From positions 1 through 41,031 of the forward strand of contig DYIZ01000044.1 of NCBI GenBank assembly GCA_020723385.1: DNA of 41,031 nt. Direction: 5' to 3'. Positions within the stretch are counted from its first letter, which is position 1, and each line of letters opens with the position of its first letter. Under the pieces are notes generated by a model. That model saw only the letters and a list, made by a program, of their open reading frames with translations. It was not told where the DNA came from and searched no databases. Both the position numbers and the translations under genes were made by a program. Below are positions 6,958 to 40,929 of the stretch, in pieces. Source of the stretch: Candidatus Aquidulcis sp. GTDB taxonomy: Bacteria; Chloroflexota; Anaerolineae; Anaerolineales; UBA4823.

Positions 6958-8154
6958 TCAATACTCATCCCAATGGCTCATCATCGGATGCAAATTGGGG
7001 AAGAGCACCCGCACCAGCGGAAGCGCCAAACCGCTGCAAGCCATGTCCGCCTGGCGGATGACTTCATCCGGCTCGTCCGAGCCAATCAGGAAGCGGGCAA
7101 GGTCTGCGCCACCGCGCAGGATGTTCTGGGTATCACCCTCGCTTGTTATTTCAACGTTTCCCTGCCCGATCTGCAAAATTGCCTTCTGCTCGCCGCCATC
7201 CAAAAGCAGGCTGCCCTGCCAACCCGCAAACCGAGAGTCTGCCAATCGTTTTTCGAGCAACGGGATGAGTTTCTGCAAAGTGCTGTGAAGGTTGATAATC
7301 CGCACGCGCCAGCCCGAAATATCGAAGTAGCGGTCTTCGACAATGCACGCCCCTTTGCGGAGACATTGCAGCATCGGGTGGTAATAGGGCAGGGTGAAGC
7401 AGGTCAGGCTGTCGTATTCCCCTTTTTTGAAGACATCGCCCAACACCGCCAACCCCTGGCGTGGATCGCCGGCAGCTTCCAGGCATTGGAGAATTTTTGG
7501 ATTATCCTCAGCCGGGAAGGCGCGGATATACCCCTCGAGTTTTCCCTGGTCATCGAACCAGGCGTACACACCGATATCATCGGGGTGGCGATTGCGGTAG
7601 GTAGGCCGAATGGCCGTGCCGGTGAAATCAGCGTGCGTCCGGTTGTAGAATGCATCGAATTCATCCATTTGTTCCGCCGCCAAAGGCCGATAGGGTTTGT
7701 AAAGATCCAATCCGGGGAGTTCTTCCAACTTCAAACGGTAATTGACATAGTTCCAGGCGCGTGCATACCCCATCTTGACATAGTGCCGGCCGCGCAGGAT
7801 GCTCAGGTCATAGCCATCCTGTAGCATGGCATCAAAGGAAGATTGCGCGGCGCGGTGCATCAAACCCTGTTTGCGGTAATCGGCGTGCGTCACAACCGCG
7901 CCGATCCCTGCCACTTTGAGCCGGATGGCTTCGAGCCGCATCAGGTATCCCCACACACCCCAGTGATGGATCATTTTGTCGCCATCCAGGATCACGCGGG
8001 AGATATTCCAATCGTAATGGCTGTTGCCGATGTAGTTCTCGCAGAATTGTTCGACATATTTTCCGCCGGTGAACACGTCGGCGGCCAGTTGAGCCATCGG
8101 GAGAAGGTGTTCATCGGCCACAGGGCAGATCATGCGAAAGTTTGTGTTGCTCAT
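6958..8154 (-). CDS. Eis-like GNAT N-acetyltransferase with SCP2-like C-terminus
   Basis: The protein has 398 residues, the length of the Eis family (two GNAT domains plus a sterol-carrier-like domain). The acetyl-CoA motif is IGAVVTHADYRKQGLM (about 84-99), with the R-x-x-G pyrophosphate loop at 94-97. The C-terminus ends in LFPNLHPMMSHWDEY, typical of this family, in which the terminal carboxylate takes part in catalysis. Eis enzymes acetylate amines of aminoglycosides and other polyamines or peptides. I chose the ATG at 8154 because AGGAGG lies ten bases upstream; an earlier ATG at 8262 would overlap the preceding ABC gene. It follows the ABC exporter genes in the same direction, fitting a modify-and-export pairing by inference only. 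Confidence 0.88.
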   Translation of the reverse strand: MSNTNFRMICPVADEHLLPMAQLAADVFTGGKYVEQFCENYIGNSHYDWNISRVILDGDKMIHHWGVWGYLMRLEAIRLKVAGIGAVVTHADYRKQGLMHRAAQSSFDAMLQDGYDLSILRGRHYVKMGYARAWNYVNYRLKLEELPGLDLYKPYRPLAAEQMDEFDAFYNRTHADFTGTAIRPTYRNRHPDDIGVYAWFDDQGKLEGYIRAFPAEDNPKILQCLEAAGDPRQGLAVLGDVFKKGEYDSLTCFTLPYYHPMLQCLRKGACIVEDRYFDISGWRVRIINLHSTLQKLIPLLEKRLADSRFAGWQGSLLLDGGEQKAILQIGQGNVEITSEGDTQNILRGGADLARFLIGSDEPDEVIRQADMACSGLALPLVRVLFPNLHPMMSHWDEY

Positions 8155-8203
8155 TGATAGATAGCCTCCTGTATTTTTCTGTAGAACAGTTGGTGCTGCT
8201 TCC

Positions 8204-10060
8204 TCAAACCGCCTCGGCTGTTCGTTCATACCATGCCGCCTGCGCCCGGAACATGCGGGCATATGGCCCGGCAGCAGCGATCAACTCGGCGTGGTTACCA
8301 TCCTGTACGATGCACCCGCGTTCCATCACCAGGATGCGGTCGGCGGTGCGCGCCAGGCCGAGGCGGTGCGTGACGATGATGGCGGTTTTGCCCCGCGCCG
8401 AATCGAGGAAAGTGCGGTACACCCGGTCTTCTTCGAGCGGGTCAATGGCTGCAGTCGGTTCGTCAAGGATGATTGTGTCGTGAGGGCGGTACAGGCCGCG
8501 GGCGATAGCCACGCGCTGCCATTCGCCGCCGGAGAGGTCTATGCCGCCAAACTCGCGCGAAAGCATGGCGTCGAGGTCGCTGCCGGGAGAGGTATCCCGG
8601 TGGTTGTAGAAGCCCGCCAGGGTGAGGGCCGCGGTTGCACGCTCACGCTCGGCGGCATCTGAGTCGCTTGCGGCGGGTTCGGCCTGCGGCGCGCCGACAC
8701 GGGCGTTCGGTGCCCCGACGCGCACGTTGTCGAGCAGCGTCATGCGGTAGCGCTGGTAGTGCTGGAAGACTGCCGAAAGCCGCTGGAAGCGCGTTTCATC
8801 GGCTGCCTCGCGCAAGTCCGCCCCGCCGATCTGCACCGAGCCGACATCGGGATGATACAGGCCGGCGATCAGGCGCACAAGCGTGCTTTTGCCGGCGCCG
8901 TTTTCACCTACCAGGGCCACCGATTCGCCGGGGCGGATCGAAAGCGTCACGTTTTCGATGGCGTTTTCGCCAGCGCCGGGGTAGCGGAAGCTCACCCGGT
9001 GCAGCTCCACGCCGCGGTCACGCGGCAGCGGCGCATGGCCGCCTTCTCGTTCCGGCGATTGCAAAAAGGCGAGGTAATTCCCGCCAAAGGCGGCATTCTC
9101 GTAGGCAAATCCCAGCCGGTCAAAGAGTTCCTCGAACCACTTGAAGATGGCATCCATGGCAAAGTACACCGCGCCGAACAGCCCCGGCGAAACCCGGCCG
9201 GTGAACACGAAACGTACCAGCAGGAGCAGGAGGCCCACGTACCCGGCGAGAGTCAACACTTTGAGGCCCAGGTCTATCGCGCCGCTACGCAGTTCGGTAT
9301 GCCACATCTCGCGGTTGTAGATGGCAAGCGCCTGGTCGTATTTGCGGCGGAAAAAGGGAACGGCCCCGCTGGTGCGGGTTTCCTTGAAAAATGCCCGATC
9401 CGTCAGACAGGCTTCGTAGTGGCCGAACTCGCGGCGCAGCGGGGCTACTTTGTTCTCGGTGTTGTAGAAGGCCGAAGCCCGGATTGCTCGCGAAAGGGCT
9501 ACCGGCAGGAAGGCGGCAAACACACCCAGTACCAGGGCTGGCTCAAGCGGGGCGAGGTATACCCCCAGGGCCAGGAAATAGCCCCCATGGAAGATCAGCG
9601 CGCACAAGAGAGTCTCCATAGCGTCAAAGCCGCGTCCGCGCCCGGCGTGGGCTTTTTCGATCCCATCGTAGAGCTCCGCCGCCTCGAAGCGGATCAATTC
9701 GAGCCGGCTGGCCTTCTCGGTCATTGCTTCGGTCATGCGGGCGTTGGCCAGGCGGGAGAGAACCTCAAACGAAAGGTTCATGGTGGCGTTCATCACCATG
9801 TAAAGAACGTTGACCCCGCCGAGCAGGAGAATCGTCCCCAAGGCAGCCTGGAACGTCAGGCTGCCGCCCACGAACAGCGGCAGCCGGTCGAGCAGGACGC
9901 GAATCAGGTGCAGGTCGGCGACGAGCAGCGCCGTGAAGCCGGCCGAGGAGAGCAGGTAGACCAGGAACAGCCACGGCTGCGTGCGGAAGGCCAGGCGCAG
10001 CATGGCGCGGATCACACGGGCGAACGAGGGGCGGGGCGGGTTGGCTTCAATCGGCTTCAT
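8204..10060 (-). CDS. ABC exporter half-transporter (TMD plus NBD), second subunit
   Basis: This 618-residue half-transporter has an N-terminal transmembrane region (about 30-300) and an ATPase domain with Walker A GENGAGKST (385-393), signature LSGGEWQRV (509-517), Walker B TIILDEPTA (529-537) and H-loop His 565. About 20 small polar and Ala/Pro residues (450-472) sit in the helical subdomain, longer than usual. The ATG at 10060 lies inside the 3' end of the upstream ABC gene (14-base overlap), so the two are translationally coupled and probably form a heterodimer of the bacterial multidrug or lipid exporter type. Both NBDs keep the catalytic Glu after Walker B, so neither site looks obviously degenerate. 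Substrate unknown. Confidence 0.93.
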   Translation of the reverse strand: MKPIEANPPRPSFARVIRAMLRLAFRTQPWLFLVYLLSSAGFTALLVADLHLIRVLLDRLPLFVGGSLTFQAALGTILLLGGVNVLYMVMNATMNLSFEVLSRLANARMTEAMTEKASRLELIRFEAAELYDGIEKAHAGRGRGFDAMETLLCALIFHGGYFLALGVYLAPLEPALVLGVFAAFLPVALSRAIRASAFYNTENKVAPLRREFGHYEACLTDRAFFKETRTSGAVPFFRRKYDQALAIYNREMWHTELRSGAIDLGLKVLTLAGYVGLLLLLVRFVFTGRVSPGLFGAVYFAMDAIFKWFEELFDRLGFAYENAAFGGNYLAFLQSPEREGGHAPLPRDRGVELHRVSFRYPGAGENAIENVTLSIRPGESVALVGENGAGKSTLVRLIAGLYHPDVGSVQIGGADLREAADETRFQRLSAVFQHYQRYRMTLLDNVRVGAPNARVGAPQAEPAASDSDAAERERATAALTLAGFYNHRDTSPGSDLDAMLSREFGGIDLSGGEWQRVAIARGLYRPHDTIILDEPTAAIDPLEEDRVYRTFLDSARGKTAIIVTHRLGLARTADRILVMERGCIVQDGNHAELIAAAGPYARMFRAQAAWYERTAEAV

Positions 10061-11834
10061 ACCAGTACCTCTGGCTTTCGTACATGCGGGCGTACAACCC
10101 GCCGGTCTGCATCAACTCGGCGTGTGACCCTGATTCGACGATGCGACCGTTATCCAGCACCAGGATCACGTCGGCGGTTTTGGTGGCCCCCAGGCGGTGC
10201 GTGATCAGCAGCGTGGCAGCCCCCTCGGTGAGGCGCTCGAAGCTGGCGTACAGTTCACTTTCGGCCAGCGGATCGAGGGCGGCGGTGGGTTCATCGAGGA
10301 TACGCAGCGCCGATGGCCGCGCCAGCGAGCGGGCCATCGCCACGCGCTGCCACTCGCCGCCGGAAAGATCCACGCCATCGGGGGCGATCTTTCCCAGGGG
10401 GGTATCCACGCCCCGGGGCAACCGCCCGGTCAGCGGGCCAAGTCCGGCGCGCTCAAAAACCTGCCCATCTTCGGCGGGTTCCTGCCCGAGGAAGACGTTG
10501 TCACGCAGCGACACGCCGTAGCGGGCGAAATCCTGGTAGACGATCGAGAAGAGGGCGCGCAGCTCCGCGGGGGAATACTCCCGCAGGTTGCGTCCATTGA
10601 CCCAAATGCTGCCCGACTCCGCCGGATAGAGGCCGGTGATCAGGCGGGTGACAGTGGTTTTGCCGCAGCCATTGGCCCCCACCAGGGCGTAATGCCTGCC
10701 GGCCTCCAGCGTCAGGTTCAGACCATCGAGGACATAGCGTTCGGCGCCGGGGTAGCGGAAGCGCACATCGCGCAGCTCGATCAAGGCGGGGGAAGCACTT
10801 GTCGCAACGGATACGCCGCCGGGCGCATTCCCTTCTTCTGGGAGAGAGAGAAAGGTTGTAAGATCCTTGAAGAACTCTGCATCCGCCGCCAGCCCATTGA
10901 CAGTATCCATGAAGCCCCAAACAATGTCGAAGCGCGTAAATGCCTGCGTCAGGGTGATGAACAGGCCAATCGAAACCGCGCCGGTTTGCAGGGAGGGCAG
11001 CAGCGCCAGCATAAGCAGCACCCAGACCGCCTGGTTGGTCAGGTTGCCGGTGTAGGCGTTGACATACCAGCGCAGCCGGGCGCGCAAGCGTACGCCGACG
11101 GCGGCGGTGAACGACTTGCGCCACATCCCGGCTACCATGCTGCTGGAACCGAACAAGGTGCGTTCAGCGGCGGCCTCGCGGCCGAGCATCACCTCACTGA
11201 GATAGCCCAGCCGCCGGTCGTGTTCGGCTACCTGGCGCTCGGCCTGGTAAAGCGCTTTGCCGCCGCGCACGCCGGTGACGAGGGCGAAACCGGCCACGGC
11301 GAACACTAACAGCGGCGCCCACCACACCGCCGATGCCAGGAGAATGAGCAGCCCGCCAACTTTGAGTATGAAAGCTGCCATGTCAATCAGGTGGTAATAG
11401 GTGGCCTTCAAACGCCCGCCTTCCGGGTTGGCCGCCACGCGTTGAATCAGATCCCAGGTGTCGCTTTGTTCGAGCAGGGCGTACTCCAGGCGGGTGCGTT
11501 TCTCGGTCAGGGCGGTGCGGTAGCGGGCGCGCAGCGCCAGCGTCAGGCGCAGGTCGGCCAGGTTGTGCAGCGAGGAACGCAGCCAGCCGAAGGCTGTCAG
11601 GCCCGCCAGCAGCGCCAGGTAGAAATAGACTTCGTCAAACGGTGCTCCACCGCGTGCCGTACGCACCACGGCGTCAATGAGGCGTGCGGCGACAAGCGTT
11701 GTGACGGGAGTCAGCGCAGCCCAGGCAAGATCGAAGAAGCCGTAAAAGAAGGCGGCAACGGGCGCGCAGCGAAAGGCAATGCCGGCGCTATCCAGCACTG
11801 TGTAGCGCCTGGGAGGCAGATTGATTGGCAACAT
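10047..11834 (-). CDS. ABC exporter half-transporter (TMD plus NBD), first subunit
   Basis: This half-transporter has 595 residues from the ATG at 11834. An AAGGA lies about 12 bases upstream; a longer frame to 12017 would run into the repeat-like element and is unlikely. The transmembrane region covers about 20-310, and the NBD has Walker A GANGCGKTT (386-394), signature LSGGEWQRV (490-498), Walker B LRILDEPTA (510-518) and His 546. The signature is identical to that of the next gene, consistent with an old duplication giving a heterodimer. Residues about 326-340, in the TMD-NBD linker, are encoded by a palindrome-like segment that matches the intergenic repeat at 2662-2691, so the linker seems to contain a captured repeat. 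Confidence 0.92.
   Translation of the reverse strand: MLPINLPPRRYTVLDSAGIAFRCAPVAAFFYGFFDLAWAALTPVTTLVAARLIDAVVRTARGGAPFDEVYFYLALLAGLTAFGWLRSSLHNLADLRLTLALRARYRTALTEKRTRLEYALLEQSDTWDLIQRVAANPEGGRLKATYYHLIDMAAFILKVGGLLILLASAVWWAPLLVFAVAGFALVTGVRGGKALYQAERQVAEHDRRLGYLSEVMLGREAAAERTLFGSSSMVAGMWRKSFTAAVGVRLRARLRWYVNAYTGNLTNQAVWVLLMLALLPSLQTGAVSIGLFITLTQAFTRFDIVWGFMDTVNGLAADAEFFKDLTTFLSLPEEGNAPGGVSVATSASPALIELRDVRFRYPGAERYVLDGLNLTLEAGRHYALVGANGCGKTTVTRLITGLYPAESGSIWVNGRNLREYSPAELRALFSIVYQDFARYGVSLRDNVFLGQEPAEDGQVFERAGLGPLTGRLPRGVDTPLGKIAPDGVDLSGGEWQRVAMARSLARPSALRILDEPTAALDPLAESELYASFERLTEGAATLLITHRLGATKTADVILVLDNGRIVESGSHAELMQTGGLYARMYESQRYWYEAD
10831..10855. repeat. REP-like imperfect palindrome inside an ABC transporter gene
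   Basis: This C/T-rich then G/A-rich tract is an imperfect palindrome. On the minus strand it begins with CCTTTCTCTC, matching the arm of the intergenic palindrome at 2662-2691, and is followed by a GCGCCC that parallels the flank there. It encodes the TMD-NBD linker of the ABC subunit without disturbing the frame. The match is by eye over a short length. Confidence 0.45.
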
Positions 11835-11910
11835 TGGTGTTGTGGTTTCCTTATGTCCTCTCAACGTTAGGACAGCTGATTGATTGACAAATCTTAACTT
11901 CAACTGGAGA

Positions 11911-12134
11911 TTCACCGCAGAGACCGTTGAGTCCGCAGAGTTTTTATTGGCAATGGAGCATAACTCGCTATTACGTTGGTCGAGTAGGCGTTTTTTGCCG
12001 TAATCGAGACCAGACATTGCGCCAAAACGCTGGTTTCGACAAACTCAACCGGCGTTTTGGTCACCGTTGATAGCGACTTATGCGGTACTGCTTTTATTGG
12101 TTTTCTCAGCGATCTCCGCGTACTCTGCGGTGAA
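11911..12134. mobile_element. MITE-like noncoding element with CACCGCAGAG inverted ends
   Basis: The 400-base gap between the ABC gene start (11834) and the APH stop (12235) has no gene. A 12-bp perfect inverted repeat, TTCACCGCAGAG (11911-11922) and CTCTGCGGTGAA (12123-12134), bounds 224 bases, with weaker similarity continuing inward from both ends. Inside is a second stem, CCAAAACGC/GCGTTTTGG (12022-12030 with 12052-12060), around GGTTTCGACAAACTCAACC. No transposase is encoded. Ends of this type recur as degraded repeats in many bacterial genomes. I see no clear target-site duplication, so mobility is inferred. Confidence 0.4.
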
Positions 12135-12234: not shown

Positions 12235-13284
12235 TCACAACTCGAACGGCCTTTCCGGCGAAAAGACGGGATCGAAAAAGCCCAGGTAAGGGATGTCGTT
12301 CTCGATACAGTGGATTTTGTAGCGCAGCCCGGCCTGGATTTCCTCGTCTGGCTCGTCCAGGTACTGAGCATAGTGCATCAACTCCTGCATCTGGATCAGG
12401 CGCAGGAAGAGCGGCAGGCGCGCCAGCCAATTGTCGCTGAGGGTGTTCTCGCGGGTGTAACCGGCCAGCACGTGTTCCATGTAACGATCCATGAAAGCCT
12501 TGCGCTCCTCCAGCGGGCGGAACATGGCCCGGCCGATCCCGCCCTCCCAGGCGCAGGCCAGGTCGTATACGAACCAGAAGTAACAGCTATCGTCGAAATC
12601 GAAGACGGTGATGTCGCCGTTGTCGTAATCCACGGTGAAGTTGCCATCGTTGAAGTCGTTGTGAATCAGGCCGTAGGAATCGGCATCTTTGGGCAGGGCG
12701 TGCAGTTCGGTGATGAGCTGATCGTATTTCAGGCCGATGATGGGCAACCGTTCCCGATAAGGAAAATCCTGATACTCCTTCCAGGCATGCCAATCGGGGC
12801 GGCGGATGGACTCGCTCAACGGCTGGTAGGTTTTCGCCAGCCGGTGCATCTGGCCCAGCACCCGCCCCCAGTTCTGGAAATATTCCTGGATTGGGACTCC
12901 TTCGCGGTAGCGGTAGCCGTTATCGGGCACGCGCATCCCCTTCCCTTTGACAAACGAAACCGCGATAAACGGGATCCCCCCGGCCGGAATCACCTCCAGG
13001 AGATTCCCGGGCTCGGATGGTACCGGTATGGAGAGACGTACCCCGCCCCGGGCCAGGTATTCTACAAAGTGCAGCTCGGCCTGGATGAGTTCCACGGGCC
13101 GGTCGGGGTTGTAGGTTATACGCAGGATGCGCGGCTGATCGTCCCGTTGGTATCGGTAAACGAGGTTGGCGCAGCCTTCGGAGTCGTCAAACTTGCTCAA
13201 GCGGTCTTTGGATGTGCCGAACAAGCAGGCGGCAGCGGGGAGCACTTCTCGCTCGCACAGTTCGGTGATTTGTTCTCTTCTCAT
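12235..13284 (-). CDS. APH-fold phosphotransferase
   Basis: This 349-residue member of the aminoglycoside phosphotransferase/choline kinase superfamily keeps the Brenner motif HNDFNDGNF (208-216; catalytic Asp 210, Asn 215) and the metal-binding VFDFDD (227-232). The N-lobe has ILRITYNPDRP, with an LRI in place of the classical lysine-bearing strand. Families of this kind phosphorylate hydroxyls on small molecules such as aminoglycosides, homoserine, choline or thioribose, or act as protein kinases. Paralogs lie at 17560, 19561 and 21708; they share the W-x-x-L-G-x-M/L-H-R helix before the active site and a Tyr-rich C-terminal helix. The ATG at 13284 has AGGAG six bases upstream. Substrate unknown. 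Confidence 0.88.
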   Translation of the reverse strand: MRREQITELCEREVLPAAACLFGTSKDRLSKFDDSEGCANLVYRYQRDDQPRILRITYNPDRPVELIQAELHFVEYLARGGVRLSIPVPSEPGNLLEVIPAGGIPFIAVSFVKGKGMRVPDNGYRYREGVPIQEYFQNWGRVLGQMHRLAKTYQPLSESIRRPDWHAWKEYQDFPYRERLPIIGLKYDQLITELHALPKDADSYGLIHNDFNDGNFTVDYDNGDITVFDFDDSCYFWFVYDLACAWEGGIGRAMFRPLEERKAFMDRYMEHVLAGYTRENTLSDNWLARLPLFLRLIQMQELMHYAQYLDEPDEEIQAGLRYKIHCIENDIPYLGFFDPVFSPERPFEL

Positions 13285-13370
13285 GTTGTTCTCCTGGTTA
13301 CATTTGTGTTCATGGCGACTTTGTGTGAGAACTCTTTTTTGTGGCCTTCGTGGCAGGAAGATAAGATTTG

Positions 13371-14303
13371 TCAGTCAATCAGCCGCTTGAACCAGGTATC
13401 GGTCACTTTCATGTCCGGCATCACCGAGCGGTAGAGGGCGTCGGCGGGGTCTTCGTTGGCGGTGGAGAAAACGCGGGTGCAGCCCAGATGCTGGAGCCGC
13501 CGCATTCCTTCGTACATAACGGCTTTGCCCAGCCCGCGCCGCCAGTGTTCGGCGGCAACACCCACCAGCACGGTGACGGCGCTGCGAGTGTAATCGTCGT
13601 AATAAATGGTGCAGAAGCCGGCGATCTCCCCGTTGGGGGCGGCGGCGACAATATCCAGGTCGCGGCGGTAGAGCGGGGCCGATTGGATGTTCCGATACCA
13701 GGAGTAATCGCCATCGTAGTGGGAATCCGGTTCGTCGGAATGGAAGGCGCGCCACGAACAAAAACTGCGGCTGGGATGTTCGCTTTCGTCGCCCATCGAG
13801 CGGAGGGTGTATCCCTCCGGGACCAGCGGGGCCGGCAGCGGGCCGATCAGATCACGCCGGTAGTGGTGGTTCCAGCCGGGATATTTGGCAAATCCCCGGC
13901 GGGTGAGCACCTCCTGGCGCAGAACATCATCCGCGAAGACCGGGGCGATGAGGTAGCGGCCGTTTTCTGTTTTTTGTGTGCAGTGCTCCTCGGCGTAGGC
14001 GAAGGCCGCCTCCTCCAGTTCGGGAGTGCGGAAGCGTGGGTGGATGTGCAGGCGGATTTCGCCGTTGCCGTAGGGATGCAGGACGGCGGCCAACTCGCCG
14101 GTCTCCGTTTCCCAGCCCACAGTGACCTGCTCGAAGGGCGGGGTCGCCTGGCAGGTGGCGATGAAATGCCAGAGCCAGTAATCCAGGCGGGCGACATTCC
14201 AACTGTGTTCGAGGCGGTTGTTGAGGATGAAGACCTCGCGCAGGAAGTTGCGGACGCGCCAGTAGTCGTCTGCGTGATGCAAGGGTTGGTGGTACAGTTT
14301 CAT
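13371..14303 (-). CDS. GNAT acetyltransferase with N-terminal degenerate half
   Basis: This 310-residue protein has a C-terminal GNAT domain. Acetyl-CoA motif A lies at about 246-262 (VLVGVAAEHWRRGLGKAVM), followed by EGMRRLQHLGC and a YRSVMPD tail that pairs with the acetyl group in the family. The first 150 residues look like a second, degenerate GNAT fold without a usable motif A. Its start codon overlaps the stop of the upstream beta-lactamase-like gene by ATGA. A close paralog of similar size and layout is at 31587-32495. Both have a strand of the type IAVAAPNGDFA/IVAAAPNGEIA before motif A. The acceptor is unknown. Confidence 0.88.
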   Translation of the reverse strand: MKLYHQPLHHADDYWRVRNFLREVFILNNRLEHSWNVARLDYWLWHFIATCQATPPFEQVTVGWETETGELAAVLHPYGNGEIRLHIHPRFRTPELEEAAFAYAEEHCTQKTENGRYLIAPVFADDVLRQEVLTRRGFAKYPGWNHHYRRDLIGPLPAPLVPEGYTLRSMGDESEHPSRSFCSWRAFHSDEPDSHYDGDYSWYRNIQSAPLYRRDLDIVAAAPNGEIAGFCTIYYDDYTRSAVTVLVGVAAEHWRRGLGKAVMYEGMRRLQHLGCTRVFSTANEDPADALYRSVMPDMKVTDTWFKRLID

Positions 14304-31586: not shown

Positions 31587-32495
31587 TCATGATCCCCTTT
31601 TCACCCAACACTCGCTGTTATACACTTTCGTGAAGCCGACAGATTGGTAAAACTCCAAATCCGAGCCGACATACGCGATAGTCGCCCCCAATGCAGCGCA
31701 CCGGCGGATGCCCTCCAACACCGCAGCCTTGCCAAGTCCTAACCGGCGGTAGGTTGGATCGGTGGCGACCGGCTCCACATAGCAGAAGCGTCCACTCGGC
31801 TCGTAGAACATGCCGCAGAAGGCAGCGAAATCGCCATTGGGGGCGGCCACGGCGATCTTCAGGTCGCGCCGCGCCTTGGGCGTGTCGAACATCCTGCGGC
31901 GGCTTTCGAGCGCATCAGCATCGTCGGGCGGCTCACCCTCGTGGTCAAAGCCGCGCCACAATACGCGATTGACCTTGACCCAATCGCACGCCTCTGCCAG
32001 GCTGGTCAGACGGAAACCTTCTGCAAGCGAGATAGGCGGTAATGGGTTGGGAATGTCGAAACGGTAAAGCGGGCGTGTTCCCTCCCGATCTTCTTCGTAG
32101 CCACGCGCCTGCACCAGCGCCAGGAATTCCGGGTCGTTGTCATTGGCGTAAGCCCAAAGGTATCGGCGGCCGTCTCTGCGAGAGATGCCTGTCAACTCCG
32201 TTTCAGCATAATCCAGCATCGCTTCACGCAGATGATGATAGGCGGGATGAAATTGGAAAAAGGCTTCGCCCAGGCACGATTCGTAGTGGCAGACGGCAAC
32301 GATTTGCCCCGAATCCTCCCAAACCCCTATTTTGCCCAGGTTGGATGCATCCAGCGCCTGATGGTAGTGCATGTATTCCCAGGCAGGTTCGAGCCAGTTG
32401 CCGTCCTGGTTGCCGGGTTGGTGGTGGGTGATGAGGAAATCAGACACGCGCTGGTAATCATCCGCGCCGTGATAGTGTCGAAAGGCAATCTTCAT
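31587..32495 (-). CDS. GNAT acetyltransferase, paralog of the 13371-14303 protein
   Basis: The 302-residue protein has a C-terminal GNAT domain with EPVATDPTYRRLGLGKAAV (acetyl-CoA loop R-R-L-G-L-G-K) and YVGSDLEFYQSVGF, where the final Tyr is the usual general-acid position. The N-terminal 150 residues form a degenerate copy. The layout and IAVAAPNGDFA segment match the protein at 13371. The ATG at 32495 has AGAGG six bases upstream and lies one base from the previous stop. The acceptor substrate is unknown. Confidence 0.87.
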   Translation of the reverse strand: MKIAFRHYHGADDYQRVSDFLITHHQPGNQDGNWLEPAWEYMHYHQALDASNLGKIGVWEDSGQIVAVCHYESCLGEAFFQFHPAYHHLREAMLDYAETELTGISRRDGRRYLWAYANDNDPEFLALVQARGYEEDREGTRPLYRFDIPNPLPPISLAEGFRLTSLAEACDWVKVNRVLWRGFDHEGEPPDDADALESRRRMFDTPKARRDLKIAVAAPNGDFAAFCGMFYEPSGRFCYVEPVATDPTYRRLGLGKAAVLEGIRRCAALGATIAYVGSDLEFYQSVGFTKVYNSECWVKRGS

Positions 32496-32496
32496 G

Positions 32497-33750
32497 TCAA
32501 ACCTCTTTGGGAATGGCCAGGCTGGGCCGGCCATCCCGGTAAGCAAGCTGGACCGAGAGCGCCCGGCCACGCTCATCCAGGTCGAATTCGAGCTTGAGCC
32601 AATCCGGGCAAAGGAAGCGATTCTCCCCGAGGGGGACCAGTTTCCAGGCGCCGCCCTGCCGGGAGTAGGTCAACGCGCCGCCCGCCAGCCCGATGGCGCG
32701 ATCCCCATATTGACCCACATAGCGCGCCAGGGTTGTTTCACCCAACCGGAGAGGCGCATAGGAATTGCGGGCAATTTCCAGGTCCCAATCCAGCTCCCGC
32801 TTGCGGATATCATCCTGACAGCCTTCGATCAGCCGTTCCAAGGCGTGCAGATGCGCCGCCTGCAAAGCCTCATCAGGCGGGACGGCGATATCTGGCTGCA
32901 CCCCCACGCCCTCCCAATCGCTTTGTGTGAAGGGGCTGATCGAGCGTCCGGAGGGATATTCCACCTGAAAATGCTCCTGGACGATCGCCATATCTGTGGT
33001 GTGCGCCGCGCCCAGGGTTGGCTCACCAATGACCGTGGCGCGCCCCATACTTTTGAGGATGTAGGCAAACGCTTCTCCGCCGGAACCGGTGACTCGGCTG
33101 GTGAGGATATACAGCGGCACATCCGGCATACATTTGCCCGGTACGTAGGGCATTGTCCATAATTGCTGGGTTTCATTGGTCGGGCGATAGAAGAACGAAT
33201 CATATAGTTTGGGTTCAGGTTTGACGAAATAGCTGACATACACCTGCAGGGTTTCGGCTTCTCCGCCGCCGTTCCGCCGTACATCGAAGATCAGCGCGTC
33301 GCAGTGGGAAACGAGCTGCATGAGCGCCACGATGCTATCGCCCGCTCCGGGGAAGCCGATCCAGGCAAAACTGTGTAAATCCACGTACCCGATGTTGCCG
33401 GGCAGGTGCTCGATCTTTTCGATGCCGAAATTCGCCCGGCAGACGTAAGCCTTTAGTTGAGCCAGCTCTTCATCACTGGCATGCTCCTCGCCGTAGAGGG
33501 TGCTGGTCAGCGTCGAATCATACAATACCGACCAATGCTGGTCGTCCGATGCCTGGCGCAGATCGGTAGTCAGCCGGTCAGCAAACTCGTGGGGAGAGAG
33601 AATGTCGTCATAATATCCCCGTTCCCATTGGGTCTCGATAAATCGGGCAATCGCCAGTCCCTTTTCGGGGAAGATATATTGTTCGCGCGCCAGGCGGGCG
33701 ATGTCTTGAACAATCGCCTGGCGAATGGCCGGGGTAAATTCTTCAATCAT
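32497..33750 (-). CDS. S41 family peptidase
   Basis: This 417-residue S41 (C-terminal processing peptidase / IRBP-like) protein has the substrate-binding and fold signature DVRRNGGGEA (156-165), then the nucleophile region LTSRVTGSGGEAFAYILK (216-233, Ser 223 likely catalytic), then VIGEPTLGAAH. There is no signal peptide, and the N-terminal IRBP-like helical region replaces a PDZ domain. It should cleave peptides in the cytosol or be re-routed; S41 members commonly process C-termini. It is followed one base later by a GNAT gene. The identity of the general base Lys is not certain. Confidence 0.88.
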   Translation of the reverse strand: MIEEFTPAIRQAIVQDIARLAREQYIFPEKGLAIARFIETQWERGYYDDILSPHEFADRLTTDLRQASDDQHWSVLYDSTLTSTLYGEEHASDEELAQLKAYVCRANFGIEKIEHLPGNIGYVDLHSFAWIGFPGAGDSIVALMQLVSHCDALIFDVRRNGGGEAETLQVYVSYFVKPEPKLYDSFFYRPTNETQQLWTMPYVPGKCMPDVPLYILTSRVTGSGGEAFAYILKSMGRATVIGEPTLGAAHTTDMAIVQEHFQVEYPSGRSISPFTQSDWEGVGVQPDIAVPPDEALQAAHLHALERLIEGCQDDIRKRELDWDLEIARNSYAPLRLGETTLARYVGQYGDRAIGLAGGALTYSRQGGAWKLVPLGENRFLCPDWLKLEFDLDERGRALSVQLAYRDGRPSLAIPKEV

Positions 33751-33809: not shown

Positions 33810-34064
33810 TCAATCCTTGAAAAACTCGAAGTTGGCTACATATGCCTCGTACACAATGGGGGAGGCGCTCATCGCGGCGATGCATCGCTCCACTTCAGTG
33901 CTGGAGGCGGTGATGATAAATTTCGGCCCGGTGCTATCGAAGTAAAGCCTGCCGCGACTGGAATCGCCGCCTTCCCGATAAGGATATGGCAGCGTACTCA
34001 AAAGCGATATGGCGCCAGCAAATGGTGTATCCATTTTGAAAACAACGCATATATCAATCGTCAT
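33810..34064 (-). CDS. Small hypothetical protein
   Basis: This 84-residue protein is of unknown function, with a central REGGDSSRGRLYFDSTGP stretch and no cysteine motif. The ATG at 34064 has AGAAGG six bases upstream, supporting translation. It is isolated by 59 and 57 bases from its neighbours, with no TM segment or signal peptide. I do not recognise a family. A small ligand-binding or dimeric protein is possible. Confidence 0.6.
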   Translation of the reverse strand: MTIDICVVFKMDTPFAGAISLLSTLPYPYREGGDSSRGRLYFDSTGPKFIITASSTEVERCIAAMSASPIVYEAYVANFEFFKD

Positions 34065-34756: not shown

Positions 34757-35431
34757 CTATTCTTCGAGCAAAAGGTAGGATAGCCCTGCCACTTGTTTTG
34801 GCATCCCGGGTGTCACCTGGATTTCACTACCCATCCTTACAACGGCGATATCCGCGGGCAGCGTGCCAAGAAACTCTTCCAGCGTCATTGTCTCAGCAGT
34901 CGCCCAGCGTGCGCTGGCCGAGGCGCTGAAATGGGTGGGGATGATCGTCCGCGCCCCAAGCCTTTCCATCTCAGGCAGAAGTTGATCCAGCGGGAGCACA
35001 TATCCATCAATGTTCACCAGGATCACATCGGCATTTGCAATAGCCGCCCGCACGTTGGGTTCGGGGATCAAGCCTGCATCGCCCAGATGCACGATCTTGG
35101 CCTGCTCGATCTCGAACACAAAGACCACGTTACGCATGGTCTTCGAAGGGCCAGTCGGCGACCCCTCGCGGCTTTCATAGCCGGTTACCCGTACCATACC
35201 AACCTGATACGTACCAGGCTCGGTGATATGCTGAGGATCACCGCCAACAGCGCTCACGTTGTTATGATCAGAGTGAACATGGCTCACAGTAACAGCCTCA
35301 GCCTCCAGGTCGCCGGGGAGGGATCCCAGTCGAGGGGGGCGCTCATCGCCATAGGGATCGCTGACGATACGGGTGCCATCCGGGGCAGTGAGTAATGTAC
35401 ATGCGTTTCCAAGAAGTTGAATCGTCGTCAT
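34757..35431 (-). CDS. Metallo-beta-lactamase-fold hydrolase, UlaG-like
   Basis: This 224-residue MBL-fold protein has the metal motif HVHSDHNN (51-58), an additional Asp at 118 (HLGDAG) and His 167 (IIPTHF). The short length and NADVILVNIDG strand fit the UlaG-like or general hydrolase group, and not the long beta-lactamase type. It acts in the cytoplasm, as no signal peptide is present. The ATG at 35431 has AAAGGA eight bases upstream; a TTG two codons earlier (35437) is less likely. Such enzymes hydrolyse lactones or phosphodiesters, and which one is unclear. Confidence 0.87.
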   Translation of the reverse strand: MTTIQLLGNACTLLTAPDGTRIVSDPYGDERPPRLGSLPGDLEAEAVTVSHVHSDHNNVSAVGGDPQHITEPGTYQVGMVRVTGYESREGSPTGPSKTMRNVVFVFEIEQAKIVHLGDAGLIPEPNVRAAIANADVILVNIDGYVLPLDQLLPEMERLGARTIIPTHFSASASARWATAETMTLEEFLGTLPADIAVVRMGSEIQVTPGMPKQVAGLSYLLLEE

Positions 35432-35481
35432 TTTCAAAATCCTTTCTGGGTTGTGGTTTATACCGGCACTCGGCTAAATCG

Positions 35482-35841
35482 TCACTCCGGCAGAGCGGTC
35501 CGGGTTATTTTGATGACAACCGAAGCGGCGGGGTCGGGACAGCGCACGAACTCGGTCGTCACCCCGTCAGGGTCTATGACTTTTTCATACGGGGTGCCGC
35601 GGTATCTCCAGGGCAACGTGCCGCCATTTTCGAGGACGCGAATCATTCCCGTCAGGCTATCCACCAGCCAGGGGCATAATTGTCCAAGATCATCGGGGTA
35701 ACGGAATTTCTGCCCCACCTGAAGACGCCCATACATCCAGGCGCAGATGCCCTCTTTGGCGAAGTCAGGATAGGCGCCGTCGGCGTGCAGGCGCCCGGGG
35801 TTGCCTTCGAAAATTTCCAGTTCGATGACGTACTCTTTCAT
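35482..35841 (-). CDS. TIGR04076-like conserved protein
   Basis: This 119-residue protein has a motif series recalling the TIGR04076 family: EGICAWMYG (Cys-Trp/Tyr), LCPWLVDSL, NGGTLPW and EFVRCPDPAASVVIKI, with three conserved Cys. The family function is unknown. The ATG at 35841 has a strong AAGGAG six bases upstream. It lies 50 bases from the MBL gene downstream and about 130 from the WD40 lipoprotein upstream. The stretch 35842-35974 holds no gene that I can see. Confidence 0.72.
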   Translation of the reverse strand: MKEYVIELEIFEGNPGRLHADGAYPDFAKEGICAWMYGRLQVGQKFRYPDDLGQLCPWLVDSLTGMIRVLENGGTLPWRYRGTPYEKVIDPDGVTTEFVRCPDPAASVVIKITRTALPE

Positions 35842-35974: not shown

Positions 35975-37123
35975 CTATCTTATGGCCCACACCTGCACCC
36001 CTTCTCCCCAAACGGAAAAGGCGATCAGGGTGCCATCCGGTGAAAAAGCCACCGCCCCGTGTTCCTGGTTTGGAACCCGGATCGTCTTTACGGCATCACC
36101 CGTTTCCATATTCCACACTTGCAACGCCTCGTGAACCGACGCTAACAAGCTGCCGTCTGGTGAGAAGGCAATTTGATATGCCGCCTGGCTGTTCTCTGGG
36201 AAATCTCTGATGATCTGGCTGCTGGCCAAATCCCATACCCTGACACCAATAGGATCGCCAAGCTCATTTGTAGCCATTACCAATTTTGTCCCATCTGGTG
36301 TGAACAAGATGTCATGGTAATCTATCCGCACCGAGACGTGAGTGAACGTGCTGGTTTCTTGCCAGGTGGCGGTATCCCAAAGTTTAATTACGTTCCCAGG
36401 CCGCTCATAACTAACCAATAGTGTATTTCCCTCGGGAGAGAAGACGAGATTGAAGATGTATTCGTAGTCGCTAACCAGGTTTGCCACCGGCTGGTAGGTT
36501 TCCAGGTCGATGATGACCACATTATTTGGCAAACCGGCCATGGCCAAAAGCCTGCCATCCGGGGAGATCGCCATAGCCCAGACACGCGATCTAAACGAAT
36601 AGGTAAACATTACCCGGCCAGTGAGATCGTATCCGGTCACCGCGCCATGGTCGCCGTAAGCGTTGACAATCATGCTCCCGTCCAGCGAAAGCGCCAGGGT
36701 GCCCCAGTACCAAATCCCTGCCGCCTCGTCTGTTGCATAGGTGCTCTGGGCTGGCAGAAAGACAGTTTTCTCCCAGGTATCGCGCTCCCAAACCAGCACC
36801 TCTCCGTTTCGGTCGCCGGTGATCATGGTTTGGCTGTCTGGTGTGAAAGCAATGGTATTGACGAACGAATCGGGCAAGTTCAAATCCATAACCTTTGCCA
36901 GCCGGGCTATCGTCTCGGTGTTAATGACCTGACTGAGGATAACTACCGTTGCCGAGGGCGCTATTGTTGCGGACGGTGATGAAGGCATGGCAGTCGCTGT
37001 GGGAGGCGCCGATGTCATGATCGGCGTAGGTATAACGGCAGTCATGGAAGGAACCGGCGTCGCGGCTGGGCTGCACGCGACAATCAAGGTGGACAGGACA
37101 ATCAAGACAAGAAACTTGTACAT
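35975..37123 (-). CDS. WD40 repeat lipoprotein
   Basis: The protein has 382 residues from ATG 37123 (GGAG eight bases upstream), with lipobox LIVAC (Cys 17) and a Thr/Pro/Ser-rich linker (about 20-60). Seven repeats with F/S-x-DG and W/Y-D/E endings follow (examples FTPDSQTMITGD, FSPEGNTLLVSY, FSPDGTLIAFSV), enough for one seven-bladed propeller. The earlier ATG at 37147 gives eight extra residues and is less favoured. Such propellers bind proteins and need no catalytic site. No enzyme domain is attached, in contrast to the protein at 27211. Confidence 0.87.
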   Translation of the reverse strand: MYKFLVLIVLSTLIVACSPAATPVPSMTAVIPTPIMTSAPPTATAMPSSPSATIAPSATVVILSQVINTETIARLAKVMDLNLPDSFVNTIAFTPDSQTMITGDRNGEVLVWERDTWEKTVFLPAQSTYATDEAAGIWYWGTLALSLDGSMIVNAYGDHGAVTGYDLTGRVMFTYSFRSRVWAMAISPDGRLLAMAGLPNNVVIIDLETYQPVANLVSDYEYIFNLVFSPEGNTLLVSYERPGNVIKLWDTATWQETSTFTHVSVRIDYHDILFTPDGTKLVMATNELGDPIGVRVWDLASSQIIRDFPENSQAAYQIAFSPDGSLLASVHEALQVWNMETGDAVKTIRVPNQEHGAVAFSPDGTLIAFSVWGEGVQVWAIR

Positions 37124-37167
37124 GGATTTTCTCCACAGGTTCGCCATGCATTTTTTTAGTGAGTTAC

Positions 37168-38166
37168 CTACGCGCCATCAACTTCCACGAACTCATTCTT
37201 ACAAGGGCGGCCTGCACAGACCAGGGCGCTGTTTTCACCGATCTTCATGAGGTAAGACCAGCATATTTCCAGCCCCTCCAATTTGTGATCGCACATTTTG
37301 TGTTCGTGGTTCTTCAAGGCCGCGATAATCAGGGGATCGGTAATATTGCCCTTATTCTGGTGAAACCATTCGTTCAGAAACGCTCCTCTGGCTGAAGTGT
37401 ATTCGATGCAACTATCGATTCTTTCCTGATCCGTGAATTGCTGCATTTCAGGTGAGTCATACAGTAACGTATTGAATTCAAATCCCTTGTCCGTGTAAGT
37501 TACCGTTGTTTTCTGCCGGTGAGACTCTACTTTGGCGATGGTGTTCTCTTTATCAACGATGACATACGTTTCTCCCCACACTTTGGGAATCTTCTCAAGA
37601 TATGCAACGGCTTTTTCCGTCGTTTCACAGGTATCCAGCACCCATCTCACCGCCAGATTCATCATGATCCCAGGGCCAGAATTCTCGTAAACGACCAAAT
37701 TGGTTGCCAATGCCAGCCCGGCCTCATTGACGCCGCCATATCGCGAAACCAGCGGCCAATGGAATGTTTCACCCATGCTTCTCAGTTTTCCATCGGGCCG
37801 GGTATAGCACAGGCGCAAATTCTCGCCCTCCCTTTCCATCCATTCATGATTACGCGCCAGAACAGGCATCCCGCTCCGGGTATGCTTGCCAGAAATCGCC
37901 ATCGTCAGACAAGATGAATGTTGGAAGCGATACGGGGTTGCCTCCAAGGTAACCGGGATGTAATAGTCTATTCCCAGGCTATCGGCAATCCCGCGAAACT
38001 CTTCGAGCAGATCAGGCGCATATACCCTGACCTGTTCCTCATAGGGACGTGATTTTTCCAGCACTTCTTTTGGATACTTGGGCGGATAACCATCGGTTCT
38101 TTTCAGAATCTCTCCCATTTGGATGCCAATCTCATAATGAGACCCGCGAAGTTCGATTTTTTTCAT
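37168..38166 (-). CDS. C45-type acyl-transferase-like Ntn hydrolase
   Basis: This 332-residue protein resembles the acyl-CoA:isopenicillin N acyltransferase (C45) family. The probable nucleophile Cys 86 is in SSCLTMAI, followed by VLARNHEWM (103-111) as in related N-terminal nucleophile enzymes, and RYGGVNEAGLA completes the conserved centre. The family autoprocesses at the Cys, so the first 85 residues may be a propeptide. It carries no signal peptide, so it works in the cytoplasm. The ATG at 38166 has AAAGGA eight bases upstream. The substrate, probably an amide of a small molecule, is unknown. Confidence 0.83.
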   Translation of the reverse strand: MKKIELRGSHYEIGIQMGEILKRTDGYPPKYPKEVLEKSRPYEEQVRVYAPDLLEEFRGIADSLGIDYYIPVTLEATPYRFQHSSCLTMAISGKHTRSGMPVLARNHEWMEREGENLRLCYTRPDGKLRSMGETFHWPLVSRYGGVNEAGLALATNLVVYENSGPGIMMNLAVRWVLDTCETTEKAVAYLEKIPKVWGETYVIVDKENTIAKVESHRQKTTVTYTDKGFEFNTLLYDSPEMQQFTDQERIDSCIEYTSARGAFLNEWFHQNKGNITDPLIIAALKNHEHKMCDHKLEGLEICWSYLMKIGENSALVCAGRPCKNEFVEVDGA

Positions 38167-38212
38167 CACGTATATCCTTTTCAGCATTGGAGGTGCTACT
38201 TTACCCTTGTCA

Positions 38213-39169
38213 TCATCCTGGCAAATGAATGGCGAACCGGCAACGCTCATCACCCTGGAGCACGGATACGAGCACCTCCACTTCGAGCTTCTGGCCGAAA
38301 ATCACTTCCCAGGGCTTCTTGTGGAATCCGGCGCTGCAATTACAGAAGATCGGCGCTACCTTCTCGCCGCTTTTAACAGCCTCGCGCGCCCACGGGCAGT
38401 GGCAATAGAAATAGCGCTTCAGGGTTGGATCGGTCTCGGCCAGGTATTGCTTGGTCATATAAGGAATTTTGACCTCGTAGATCACATTTCCAACCCGCAC
38501 CCCGCCGCCCATCTCCGGCTCGTTGCGCACGAATGCCAGCACATCATCAGTAATCTCCTGGGCGAAGAAAAGCCGCCCATCCCGCTGGCAGGCTTCCAAC
38601 TGCTCGACAAATGCCTGCTTCTTCTTGACAAGGTACTCGTCAACGTCTTTGCAAGATTGGTATATCTCGCGCCCGCTGGCGAAGTACTCATCCGGCAAGT
38701 CACGCAGGCTGGCTGACAGAAGATCCCGGCAGGCATCCGCTCCGACGGCAAGCGCCAGCCTCTCGATAACTGGATGCATATAGCGGGGTTTCTCCGGCGT
38801 CGGCAGGCCGAAGGGGGCCACGCCAATCCCGGAGAAGATCTCATCCCGCAGAGTCTCCCCGAAGCGCTCCGCGACGCGCCGGTACAGATTTTCCTGCGCC
38901 TCGCCGCCATCCAGCGATTCCACGAAGGCGACAAAGATGGCGTTATCCTTGATGAATAGCCCGTACCGCGCCAGGGTGAAGAAATTCTCCACGGTGTTTT
39001 GCCCCTCTCCGATGAGGATTTTCGAGAAAGCCCAGGCGCTCTCTGCTGACAACCCGCCGGATTGTTGTGCATAATTCTCAAACCGCTCGGCCAGAGCCAG
39101 GGCGGCATCGAGCTTCTCGGCAGGCACTTTGCGCCCTTCCAACATCGTGCGAAATCCTTGGGTATCCAT
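38213..39169 (-). CDS. Conserved protein with C-terminal CxC-CxC cluster
   Basis: The protein has 318 residues from ATG 39169, with AAGGA seven bases upstream. A start at 39199, overlapping the previous stop, is also possible. Two pairs of cysteines, C256-H-C258 and C276-N-C278, lie in a C-terminal domain that ends with QGDERCRFAIHLP, resembling the ligand-binding end of V4R or ATC-hydrolase-like proteins. This suggests a metal or thiol site. The helical N-terminal half has no assignable motif. The function is unknown. Confidence 0.7.
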   Translation of the reverse strand: MDTQGFRTMLEGRKVPAEKLDAALALAERFENYAQQSGGLSAESAWAFSKILIGEGQNTVENFFTLARYGLFIKDNAIFVAFVESLDGGEAQENLYRRVAERFGETLRDEIFSGIGVAPFGLPTPEKPRYMHPVIERLALAVGADACRDLLSASLRDLPDEYFASGREIYQSCKDVDEYLVKKKQAFVEQLEACQRDGRLFFAQEITDDVLAFVRNEPEMGGGVRVGNVIYEVKIPYMTKQYLAETDPTLKRYFYCHCPWAREAVKSGEKVAPIFCNCSAGFHKKPWEVIFGQKLEVEVLVSVLQGDERCRFAIHLPG

Positions 39170-39195
39170 ATCCTGTTCCTTCCCTTCTTCCTGGT

Positions 39196-40146
39196 TCATG
39201 AGAGAATATCGTCAATGGCTTCATCAATTCTTTGGGCCAGATCTGGCGGGTACCAGTGACCCTCATTGGGCGTGACAACGAACCGATGCGCGACGCCGCC
39301 TTCTTCGAAAGCCTTCGCCAGCTTACGCTGATCCTCCAGGCGGTTGTCCATCTCTGACGTGAGCAATAATCCTTTCTGCCCACGGGATCGAATACGTGTG
39401 ATTGCTTCGAGAGAATATGCTTCGGGCACAGGCGGACAGAGCACAATGAAGCCTCGGATGGGCAGGATTTGCTGCTCATCCAGCAGTAAGGTCAGGGTCA
39501 AGTGACCCCCGGCGGAAAATCCGCCCATCAGCACCTGCCCAGTATCTACGGAGTATTCTTTCAACACTGTTTGGTAAGCCGCCAGGATTTCCTGCCGGTC
39601 CTGGTCTTCTCCCAGCCAACTAAAGCCGCGCATCGAGACCGGACGCGATGACTGGGGATAAGCGACAATGAAATCGCTCGCCATCCGGGGCGAAGTCCAA
39701 CGCTCTTTGAAATCTGCCGCCGTCTCGTCGCCGCCATGCAGGGCGATGAAGAGTGGGTATTTCATCGCTGGATCGTATCTGGCGGGCGGAGCGATGCTCA
39801 ATTCGGGCCGGGAATTTTTCTGGGCCTCGTGCTGGCATTCCATCGAGCGTGAGATCACCTGTTGGAATATTCCCAACGTCTTCAATGGATTCCACAGGTC
39901 GCCCGTGAAATCCCATTGGCCATACCAGATGCCGTGATCCAGGCCATAGAGCAGTGAAGCTGCCGCTTTTTCCGCCTGGCCCAACAGTGCCTGGCAGGCC
40001 GCAAGGTTGTAGGCATTTGCCAGAACGTTTGCAGGGAATTGCGTCAATCCCCATTCCAATATCTCGGCCGCCTGCGTGTATTGTTCTTGCTGGAACAGCT
40101 CGCCAATTTTCTGGCGCATTTCCGCGTAAGTTGCATAAGTTTCCAT
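39196..40146 (-). CDS. TPR-like plus alpha/beta hydrolase fold esterase
   Basis: This 316-residue protein has an N-terminal TPR-like helical region (about 15-75, YNLAACQALLGQAEKA) followed by an esterase D / dienelactone-hydrolase-like fold. HGGDE (137-141) forms the oxyanion hole, GFSAGG (209-214) contains Ser 211, SEMDNR is the acid position and EGHWYP is the His. It should hydrolyse esters in the cytoplasm. The ATG at 40146 (spacing nine after AAGGAG) is favoured over that at 40152 (spacing three). It follows the methyltransferase gene without a gap. Confidence 0.85.
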   Translation of the reverse strand: METYATYAEMRQKIGELFQQEQYTQAAEILEWGLTQFPANVLANAYNLAACQALLGQAEKAAASLLYGLDHGIWYGQWDFTGDLWNPLKTLGIFQQVISRSMECQHEAQKNSRPELSIAPPARYDPAMKYPLFIALHGGDETAADFKERWTSPRMASDFIVAYPQSSRPVSMRGFSWLGEDQDRQEILAAYQTVLKEYSVDTGQVLMGGFSAGGHLTLTLLLDEQQILPIRGFIVLCPPVPEAYSLEAITRIRSRGQKGLLLTSEMDNRLEDQRKLAKAFEEGGVAHRFVVTPNEGHWYPPDLAQRIDEAIDDILS

Positions 40147-40152
40147 GGTCAT

Positions 40153-40929
40153 TTACTCCTTCTCAGTCTGTAGCTTGCGCGCCACCAGGCGCACAAAGGT
40201 GATGGAGCGTCCGGCATCGTCCTCGGCAATCTTTTCCGGGTAGCCGATGATACGCTCCCAACGCAAGTAAGTCTGGTAGCCTTCGCTATCTGGGAAATTA
40301 TCGGCCAGCAGCACTTCCACCTGGCTCGTCTTGAGCAGATGCTGACGCCACCATTCGGCGGAATGCCAGGCAGCGAGCGAACACGAATCCCAATAGGGCT
40401 TCAGGTGCTCGGGGATACGGTTGGGGTAATCTCCCGCAATTTCGGTATAGAACCCCGGTGCAACGATCCCCAATTGGCTGCCCGGCTTGAGCAGCGGCAG
40501 CAAATACCAGGGCAAATAAGTATCGCCGGTGGCAAAAAACCAAAGGGAGTTAATCGCAATGACGGCGTCGAAGAAATCCATCGGGAATGGCAATTCGAGC
40601 GCATCACAGCGCAAGGGGAAGACCCGGTCGGCAACGCCCGCTTTGCGGATACGCTCCCAATTCTCGGTCGCCCGCACCATTTTATCTACGGCCCACACCT
40701 GCAGGCCGAATTCTTTGGCCAGGAAGATCGAGCCGCCGGCTTTGCCGCAGCCCAGGTCGAGCACGCGCATCCCGGGTTTTAATTCCATCTCGTCGCACAG
40801 GCTCTCCAGCAGCCAGAAAGTAGGGCAGCCCATCTCCAATCCGACCTGCCATTCGGGGTCGTAATGACAAGTGCGCGGATAGCGTGGGTTTGCAAGCAAC
40901 TCTCGAGCCAGATCAAGGTTTGGTGTCAT
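40153..40929 (-). CDS. SAM-dependent methyltransferase, class I
   Basis: The protein has 258 residues from ATG 40929 (AGGAG seven bases upstream). Motif I is VLDLGCGKAGG (56-66), then AVDKM (80-84, acidic ribose contact), then FDAVIAINSLWFF. It is a class I methyltransferase of the small-molecule type, with no sign of a nucleic-acid-binding domain. A longer frame to 41016 begins within a repeat and is not preferred. The stop is immediately before the next start, so the two genes are probably coupled. Substrate unknown. Confidence 0.87.
   Translation of the reverse strand: MTPNLDLARELLANPRYPRTCHYDPEWQVGLEMGCPTFWLLESLCDEMELKPGMRVLDLGCGKAGGSIFLAKEFGLQVWAVDKMVRATENWERIRKAGVADRVFPLRCDALELPFPMDFFDAVIAINSLWFFATGDTYLPWYLLPLLKPGSQLGIVAPGFYTEIAGDYPNRIPEHLKPYWDSCSLAAWHSAEWWRQHLLKTSQVEVLLADNFPDSEGYQTYLRWERIIGYPEKIAEDDAGRSITFVRLVARKLQTEKE

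Follow-up and report, generated by a model that had tools for sequence, protein, structure and literature searches.

Contig DYIZ01000044.1 of Candidatus Aquidulcis sp. (Chloroflexota, Anaerolineales) is 41,031 nucleotides long, and the whole of this contig (C143 of the draft genome) is the window analysed here. From position 6958 to the contig end it carries a run of approximately 30 genes, all on the minus strand, in which predicted kinases, GNAT acetyltransferases and hydrolases stand together with an ABC exporter. Judging from sequence comparison, we give about an even chance to this run being an accessory chromosomal island of inhibitor-inactivating and inhibitor-exporting enzymes that have been exchanged gene by gene. 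The kinases would phosphorylate, the GNATs acetylate and the hydrolases cleave incoming inhibitors, and the ABC pair would expel them, to the presumed benefit of the cell. As inhibitors we propose natural products, for instance ribosome inhibitors of the amicoumacin or aminoglycoside type. If these enzymes do inactivate antibiotics, the chromosomes of little-known Chloroflexota would be dense reservoirs of exchangeable resistance-type enzymes, distant from those already known and with no integron array detected, a point of interest for the origin of resistance genes; the part of the set that recurs in relatives is small enough for direct testing. Below, C denotes contigs, of this genome where no other is named, G other genomes, L the loci that were read and f family labels, this genome and G005 both belonging to family f1.

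Three genes of the island encode intact kinases of the APH family (PF01636), namely APH1 (12235-13284), APH2 (17560-18600) and APH3 (21708-22730), and a fourth (19578-20060, 160 aa, no Pfam match) retains only the N-terminal part of a kinase; a longer APH-family protein in G005 matches it with 42% identity across 132 aa. The GNATs are GNAT2 (PF00583, 13371-14303), GNAT3 (PF13302, 19043-19564), GNAT4 (31587-32576), GNAT5 (PF13302, 34122-34688) and an Eis-like protein of about 400 aa (PF13527, 6958-8262, likely start near 8154), encoded by the final gene of the island. Hydrolases of PF00144 are found three times, as the serine hydrolase Bla1 (14300-15703, with a weak C-terminal TPR match), as Bla2 together with WD40 repeats (27211-29379) and as Bla3 (29544-31502), and an MBL-fold protein with a Lactamase_B_3 domain (PF13483) lies at 34757-35437. 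Exporter half B (8204-10060) has 85% identity to its counterpart in G005, and half A (10047-11834), whose ORF (open reading frame) opens at 12017 with the conserved part starting at about 11834, has 84% in G005 and 78% in G009. A CBAH-type Ntn hydrolase with a PDZ domain (25511-27325), a C45/AAT Ntn hydrolase (37168-38253), an esterase-like alpha/beta hydrolase (39196-40152) and a methyltransferase (40153-41016) complete the list of families named in a preliminary description of this DNA, and both that list and the single direction of the run agree with the ORFs and the Pfam domains. The same description saw no polyketide or peptide assembly line, and indeed no PKS (polyketide synthase) or NRPS (non-ribosomal peptide synthetase) domain is listed among the 30 island proteins searched with Pfam, the listing comprising the best 25 families for two WD40 proteins. 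Since the window is a whole contig, the island is cut off at the contig end.

The best matches of APH1, APH2 and APH3 among PDB structures are the amicoumacin kinases 6sui and 6sum (142, 195 and 119 bits, respectively), which are the closest solved proteins to all three over most of their length. The next-best matches reach only 25-41 bits and are an aminoglycoside phosphotransferase (25-35) or, for APH3, a homoserine kinase (41), and the catalytic loop HxDxxxxN is kept in all three kinases. Amicoumacin kinase inactivates an antibiotic; the window kinases differ from the solved ones in being only moderately similar to them and in occurring as three paralogs inside a GNAT-rich island. The Eis-like protein resembles Eis acetyltransferases in its PF13527 GNAT domain and in its length. 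In Eis, a hexameric protein, the first GNAT domain is followed by another GNAT-like region and an SCP2-like domain. PF13527 is the sole Pfam domain found in the window protein, which has no NCBIfam match, only a weak PDB match (3n7z, E 0.0024) and a poor AlphaFold model (pLDDT 47). As for the hydrolases, the earlier labels of beta-lactamase fold and MBL fold hold in so far as the three PF00144 domains and the Lactamase_B_3 domain are present, but PF00144 is a broad family of hydrolases and neither domain shows beta-lactam resistance. Among solved proteins, Bla1 is closest to a PBP-related protein named as a beta-lactamase and to IS11, with peptidases and esterases further among its matches, so that its chemistry could be any of several. 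By description only, a further comparable kinase is ComG, which is reported to inactivate the peptide antibiotic corramycin and which was found via a search for aminoglycoside phosphotransferase (PMC10996006). Among the matches listed for amicoumacin kinase in titles and abstract openings of the open-licence literature, none describes the kinase.

The clustering of these families is not what random placement predicts. The island holds seven APH and PF00583 GNAT genes against 0.43 expected (Poisson 4e-7), figures for a region and gene families that were chosen after being seen, and its three APH genes within 11 kb give P 0.017 when taken alone. The simulation used the counts of the genome itself (25 APH matches and 57 PF00583 GNAT genes, GNAT matches within 900 bases being merged) and placed genes uniformly. 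A second and larger run lies at approximately 44.8-90 kb of contig C27 (coordinates on C27 above 22000 are one too high owing to a stitching overlap), mostly on the minus strand with some plus-strand genes, where a stretch of 46 kb holds 13 GNAT genes, against a maximum of 6 across 5000 simulations, and four APH genes are found in 20 kb (P 0.0014). It contains APH, GNAT, MFS, methyltransferase-like, ABC and nucleotidyltransferase-type proteins and an AadA_C protein, together with an ABC-F protein that scores 436 bits against the NCBIfam ribosomal-protection cut-off of 380, the only one of ten C27 proteins over the cut-off of a curated resistance model. Two further APH genes plus GNAT matches are found on the minus strand of C14. 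Proposed earlier as a drug-modification-type island, the run keeps the enrichment that the name implies, but about half of its genes come from other families. The detoxification reading likewise gains from the nearest relatives of the kinases and from the clearer resistance-type proteins on C27, which favour it for some members, but that all members modify drugs is not supported. Elsewhere in the C27 run, a chloramphenicol-phosphotransferase-like (CPT) domain is fused to a GNAT domain (L005 221-1273), a KNTase_C domain is fused to another (L002 5013-6290), and an EF-G gene scores 776 bits against a cut-off of 659 (L043 319-2406). Homologues of this run also occur on one strand of approximately 6 kb in G003 (L051, contig C19), namely ABC-F (71%), a methyltransferase (65%), a double GNAT (63%) and an MFS protein (54%), plus more GNATs.

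It may be asked whether the window belongs to this organism at all. The genome is a draft of 6.43 Mb in 239 contigs with an estimated contamination of 4.5%, and a contig from another organism could have been binned with it; however, genomes of the same family hold some of the same genes, and the C27 run lies inside a 100-kb contig with housekeeping genes (a predicted dnaK region), so that we regard a binning artefact as very unlikely.

The members would work in small coupled groups, with Bla1-GNAT2, GNAT3-TM and ABC-A/B as candidates, TM being a small predicted membrane protein without a Pfam match (18597-19124, likely start near 19052). Stop and start codons overlap as ATGA at called ORF starts in 4 of the 29 junctions (alpha/beta hydrolase-DUF6144-like, APH3-M1 peptidase, TM-APH2 and Bla1-GNAT2, the last by four bases), and a fifth overlap, GNAT3-TM, requires an internal ATG; a mechanical count gives nine, the remaining four being judged incompatible with likely gene starts. 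Such overlaps had been called many; they are present, but hardly many for 29 junctions. The six gaps of more than 120 bases within the island mean that it is not one operon and comprises several coupled groups. The DUF6144-like protein named here (38213-39199) scores 25.1 bits, below the Pfam cut-off of 28.8, and has a weak AlphaFold model (pLDDT 60). On either side of APH1 stand 27-nt inverted repeats (11875-11901 and 13357-13383, 93% complementary, the second overlapping the final bases of GNAT2), which may be what a mobile unit has left behind, and the gene is adjoined by a 142-bp repeat (11950-12091) that contig C226 carries in identical form.

Part of the neighbourhood recurs in relatives, where an ortholog was taken as a protein of at least 50% identity. 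An APH1-anchored scan of named genomes gave six loci, three in records named Anaerolineae, Anaerolineales or Chloroflexi (77-81%), one in another Anaerolineales (70%), one in a Bipolaricaulis-labelled record (72%) and one in an Acetothermia-labelled record (L031, 78% over 239 aa and 57% over 120 aa in a second frame). Three of the six have further window orthologs: L026 (LaPlata bin-480) combines APH1 with GNAT2, the DUF6144-like gene, GNAT4, GNAT3 and the Eis-like gene, which makes six orthologs of 63-81% in 8.4 kb, the ABC pair accompanies APH1 in L027 (UBA6092, G005), and the Eis-like gene directly precedes APH1 in L028. Two further similarities are found near APH1: in G005, a WD40 fragment with 84% identity over 73 aa to the WD40 protein at 35975-37147, and in G003, 0.5 kb away, a 56% homologue of the 119-aa protein at 35482-35841 (no Pfam match, presumably TIGR04076-like). 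On contig C78 of G005, GNAT2 and GNAT4 occur with another GNAT in between, and five stretches of its contig C20 beside L014 showed no window ortholog. In the Bipolaricaulis- and Acetothermia-labelled bins (L029 and L031), the gene after APH1 encodes a hydrolase with approximately 29% identity to Bla1.

GNAT2 served as a second anchor, with matches at E 1e-60 or better in 49 of 400 genomes of the order, its own included. Of the 63 matches listed, two come from the genome itself; loci were read in the 14 next-best other genomes plus L056, leaving out a 139-residue fragment of 74% identity (G351). Five of the eight loci with at least 63% identity carry further window orthologs: five in L081, seven in L082, three in L084 and one each in L083 and L056, in both cases GNAT4; in L085, a protein resembling the L026 small GNAT is all that was found. 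The DUF6144-like protein reaches 75% in L026/L081, where it is in two pieces, and in L082. L081 and L026 probably lie on one and the same contig, the proteins being 100% alike, so the two anchors are apparently not independent. The Eis-like protein had no match outside its own genome in the class sample, yet L028, L081 and L082 have homologues of it, so that the spread is wider than sample counts suggest. Altogether, members of the set co-occur in several genera of families f1 and f12, and f8 has a pair of paralogous GNATs together. A conserved neighbourhood, on which the preliminary description had made its proposal depend, is therefore found in part, but many window genes have no ortholog there.

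The most compact version of the set is L082 (G378, family f12), where TM, Bla1, GNAT2, a small GNAT, an ICMT-like gene, the DUF6144-like gene, APH1, GNAT4, GNAT3 and the Eis-like gene follow one another on one strand with gaps of -14 to 23 bases. Eight of them are window orthologs of 51-80% identity, and the same eight are dispersed over 32 kb in the window and separated by other genes, whereas no counterpart of the small GNAT or of the ICMT-like gene was found there. L081/L026 has the shared genes in the same order with a kinase and a SnoaL-like gene inserted, and the Eis-like gene is the last shared gene in L026/L081, in L082 and in the island. This arrangement may be taken to mean that the shared set (Bla1, GNAT2, the small GNAT, the ICMT-like and DUF6144-like genes, APH1, GNAT4, GNAT3, the Eis-like gene and perhaps the ABC pair) forms a dedicated pathway that, with no assembly line, processes one endogenous or scavenged compound, the window being a rearranged and expanded version. 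The operon-like run of L082, the same order in L081/L026 and the Bla1-GNAT2 overlap of four bases, kept in another family (G378), would all fit. However, L081 and L082 are closely related (85-97% in the five proteins compared), so their common order says little, gene order and content differ between the window, G005 and G022, and shared genes are also found without the others (L029-L031, L086 and L087). We consider such a pathway rather doubtful, though next in likelihood after the exchanged island. A related proposal, which we hold tentatively as a lesser possibility, is an Anaerolineae module without an assembly line and directed at one class of compounds, compact in L082/L081, broken up and expanded in the window, with genes exchanged by a route other than integrons; its components would be four to five GNATs, an amicoumacin-kinase-like kinase, the ICMT-like and DUF6144-like proteins and, in the case of L082, also a hydrolase of PF00144.

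The island of gene-by-gene exchange draws further on the borders of similarity. Nucleotide similarity covers single genes or the pairs Bla1-GNAT2, GNAT3-TM and ABC-A/B and breaks off no more than a few bases from where these begin or end; the succession of GNAT3 and TM is also seen in G022, where the TM homologue has 79% identity. APH1 identity is out of step with kinship (80, 70 and 59% within the same family, 81 and 80% in another, and the values given above for the Bipolaricaulis- and Acetothermia-labelled records), and this suggests that APH1 has been transferred between lineages, although mislabelled bins may also be the source of the pattern. In the APH1 tree, the window copy groups with L026 and L027 and the remaining branches are unresolved. 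That the run is one single system is not supported, given the shuffled order, the differing content, the long gaps and the many genes without ortholog in the recurring loci.

Several observations weigh against an exchanged island of inactivating enzymes. About half of the genes lie outside drug-modification families, among them those for the M1-type (19993-21711), MA-type (22857-23681) and S41 (32497-33750) peptidases, a PMT_2 glycosyltransferase (23703-25682), WD40 proteins and an NADPH-dependent FMN reductase (16786-17349). Curated NCBIfam resistance models gave no hit over cut-off for ten window proteins, and none at cut-off for the three kinases and two GNATs tested. Beside APH1 there is no window ortholog of at least 50% in L029, L030 and L031, and there is no further one in three of the eight GNAT2 loci of at least 63% (L085, L086 and L087) or in any of the seven loci at 47-59%. 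Most window genes outside the shared set have no ortholog in the loci read. Few genomes have these genes, even when this one is counted: ABC-A occurs in 3 of 400, the Eis-like gene in 1 of 396, APH1 in 4 of 38 and GNAT2 in the 49 of 400 given above, with few candidates per genome scored for ABC-A and GNAT2. The order shared by L081 and L082, with the tight spacing of the latter, fits a dedicated function equally. Finally, among 118 ORFs of the same genome outside the window, the C27 run and C14, taken as a control, seven match the same loci at 50% or more and the other 111 do not. The seven come from two stretches, four from C186 and three from 27-31 kb of C27, the latter matching L051, and they indicate that the accessory neighbourhood extends beyond the window and that the control is not clean. 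Automatic ORF picking at times took the antisense frame (as for APH1 and GNAT2), and one of the C27 matches at the loci read is such a frame. The C186 stretch (L012 2806-6448) and L026 (15323-18053) share a cluster of GNAT and Rce1-like genes, four proteins of 74-83%, which in L026 lies on the opposite strand just past the island.

Part of this would be expected of a zone of neutral accretion, in which accessory genes without shared function gather where insertion is tolerated and a bias of transcription or replication would account for their common direction. In its favour are the mixed functions, the truncated kinase, a GC content of 0.44-0.64 per 1-kb block, the repeats and the gene-by-gene mosaic; against it stand the joint recurrence of one set in several genera of f1 and f12, the paralogous GNAT pair in f8 and the APH/GNAT enrichment, and we judge this explanation unlikely. 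The FtsX-type protein of the left flank is too sparse a marker for an insertion hotspot, with a match in 1 of 24 other genomes, at 38% identity.

A long one-direction array of accessory genes is also the likeness that links the window to sedentary chromosomal integrons. An integron integrase ORF exists in the genome (C105, L050 5778-6755, 325 aa, 451 bits against a cut-off of 265), adjoining a pyruvate-kinase-like gene and 63% identical to a cyanobacterial plasmid integrase; it is the only match above cut-off in the genome, no integrase was found beside the array as it stands in the draft assembly, and a consensus scan found no attC-like pair on the 8-kb C105. The same scan found four pairs in the island, at two places and on both strands, against 0-6 in ten local shuffles; the two places have 33 of their 130 and 0 of their 157 bases between genes, and the scan did not find an attC site after each gene. 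On the control, a class 1 integron of E. coli, it recovered the site after aadA plus one false place. The window thus differs from integrons in lacking detected attC sites and in its overlapping genes, and on these grounds a cassette array was rejected as extremely unlikely. Multidrug-resistance islands and plasmid resistance regions are similar in their clustered modification-type enzymes and exporter, and C27 adds an ABC-F; unlike them, the window has no transposase or integrase among 32 proteins scanned with Pfam, and APH1, APH2 and GNAT2 have no plasmid relative of at least 60% identity. Nor did megablast find a plasmid match for the 13 kb of window sequence submitted to it. No such Anaerolineae island appears among the matches listed for resistance genes, gene clusters and integrons in titles and abstract openings of the open-licence literature.

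An anti-phage system is not supported either, as PADLOC models matched none of ten proteins picked among the 30 of the island. No tRNA or Rfam family above gathering score was found within the window, and promoter and terminator scans gave counts close to those in shuffled sequence. The island further contains an unassigned ORF (15906-16907) and an 84-aa ORF (33810-34064), both without Pfam match and on the minus strand, and a palindrome with 42-nt arms (86% complementary) at 17427-17513, between APH2 and the FMN reductase. At the border, a terminator-like inverted repeat (6900-6946, 21-nt arms, 95%) lies between the island and the convergent left flank (below 6900), whose plus strand encodes a predicted ABC ATPase and the FtsX-type permease. 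At 1-2751, where a minus-strand frame has no Pfam match, long ORFs overlap on both strands and GC content rises to 70%.

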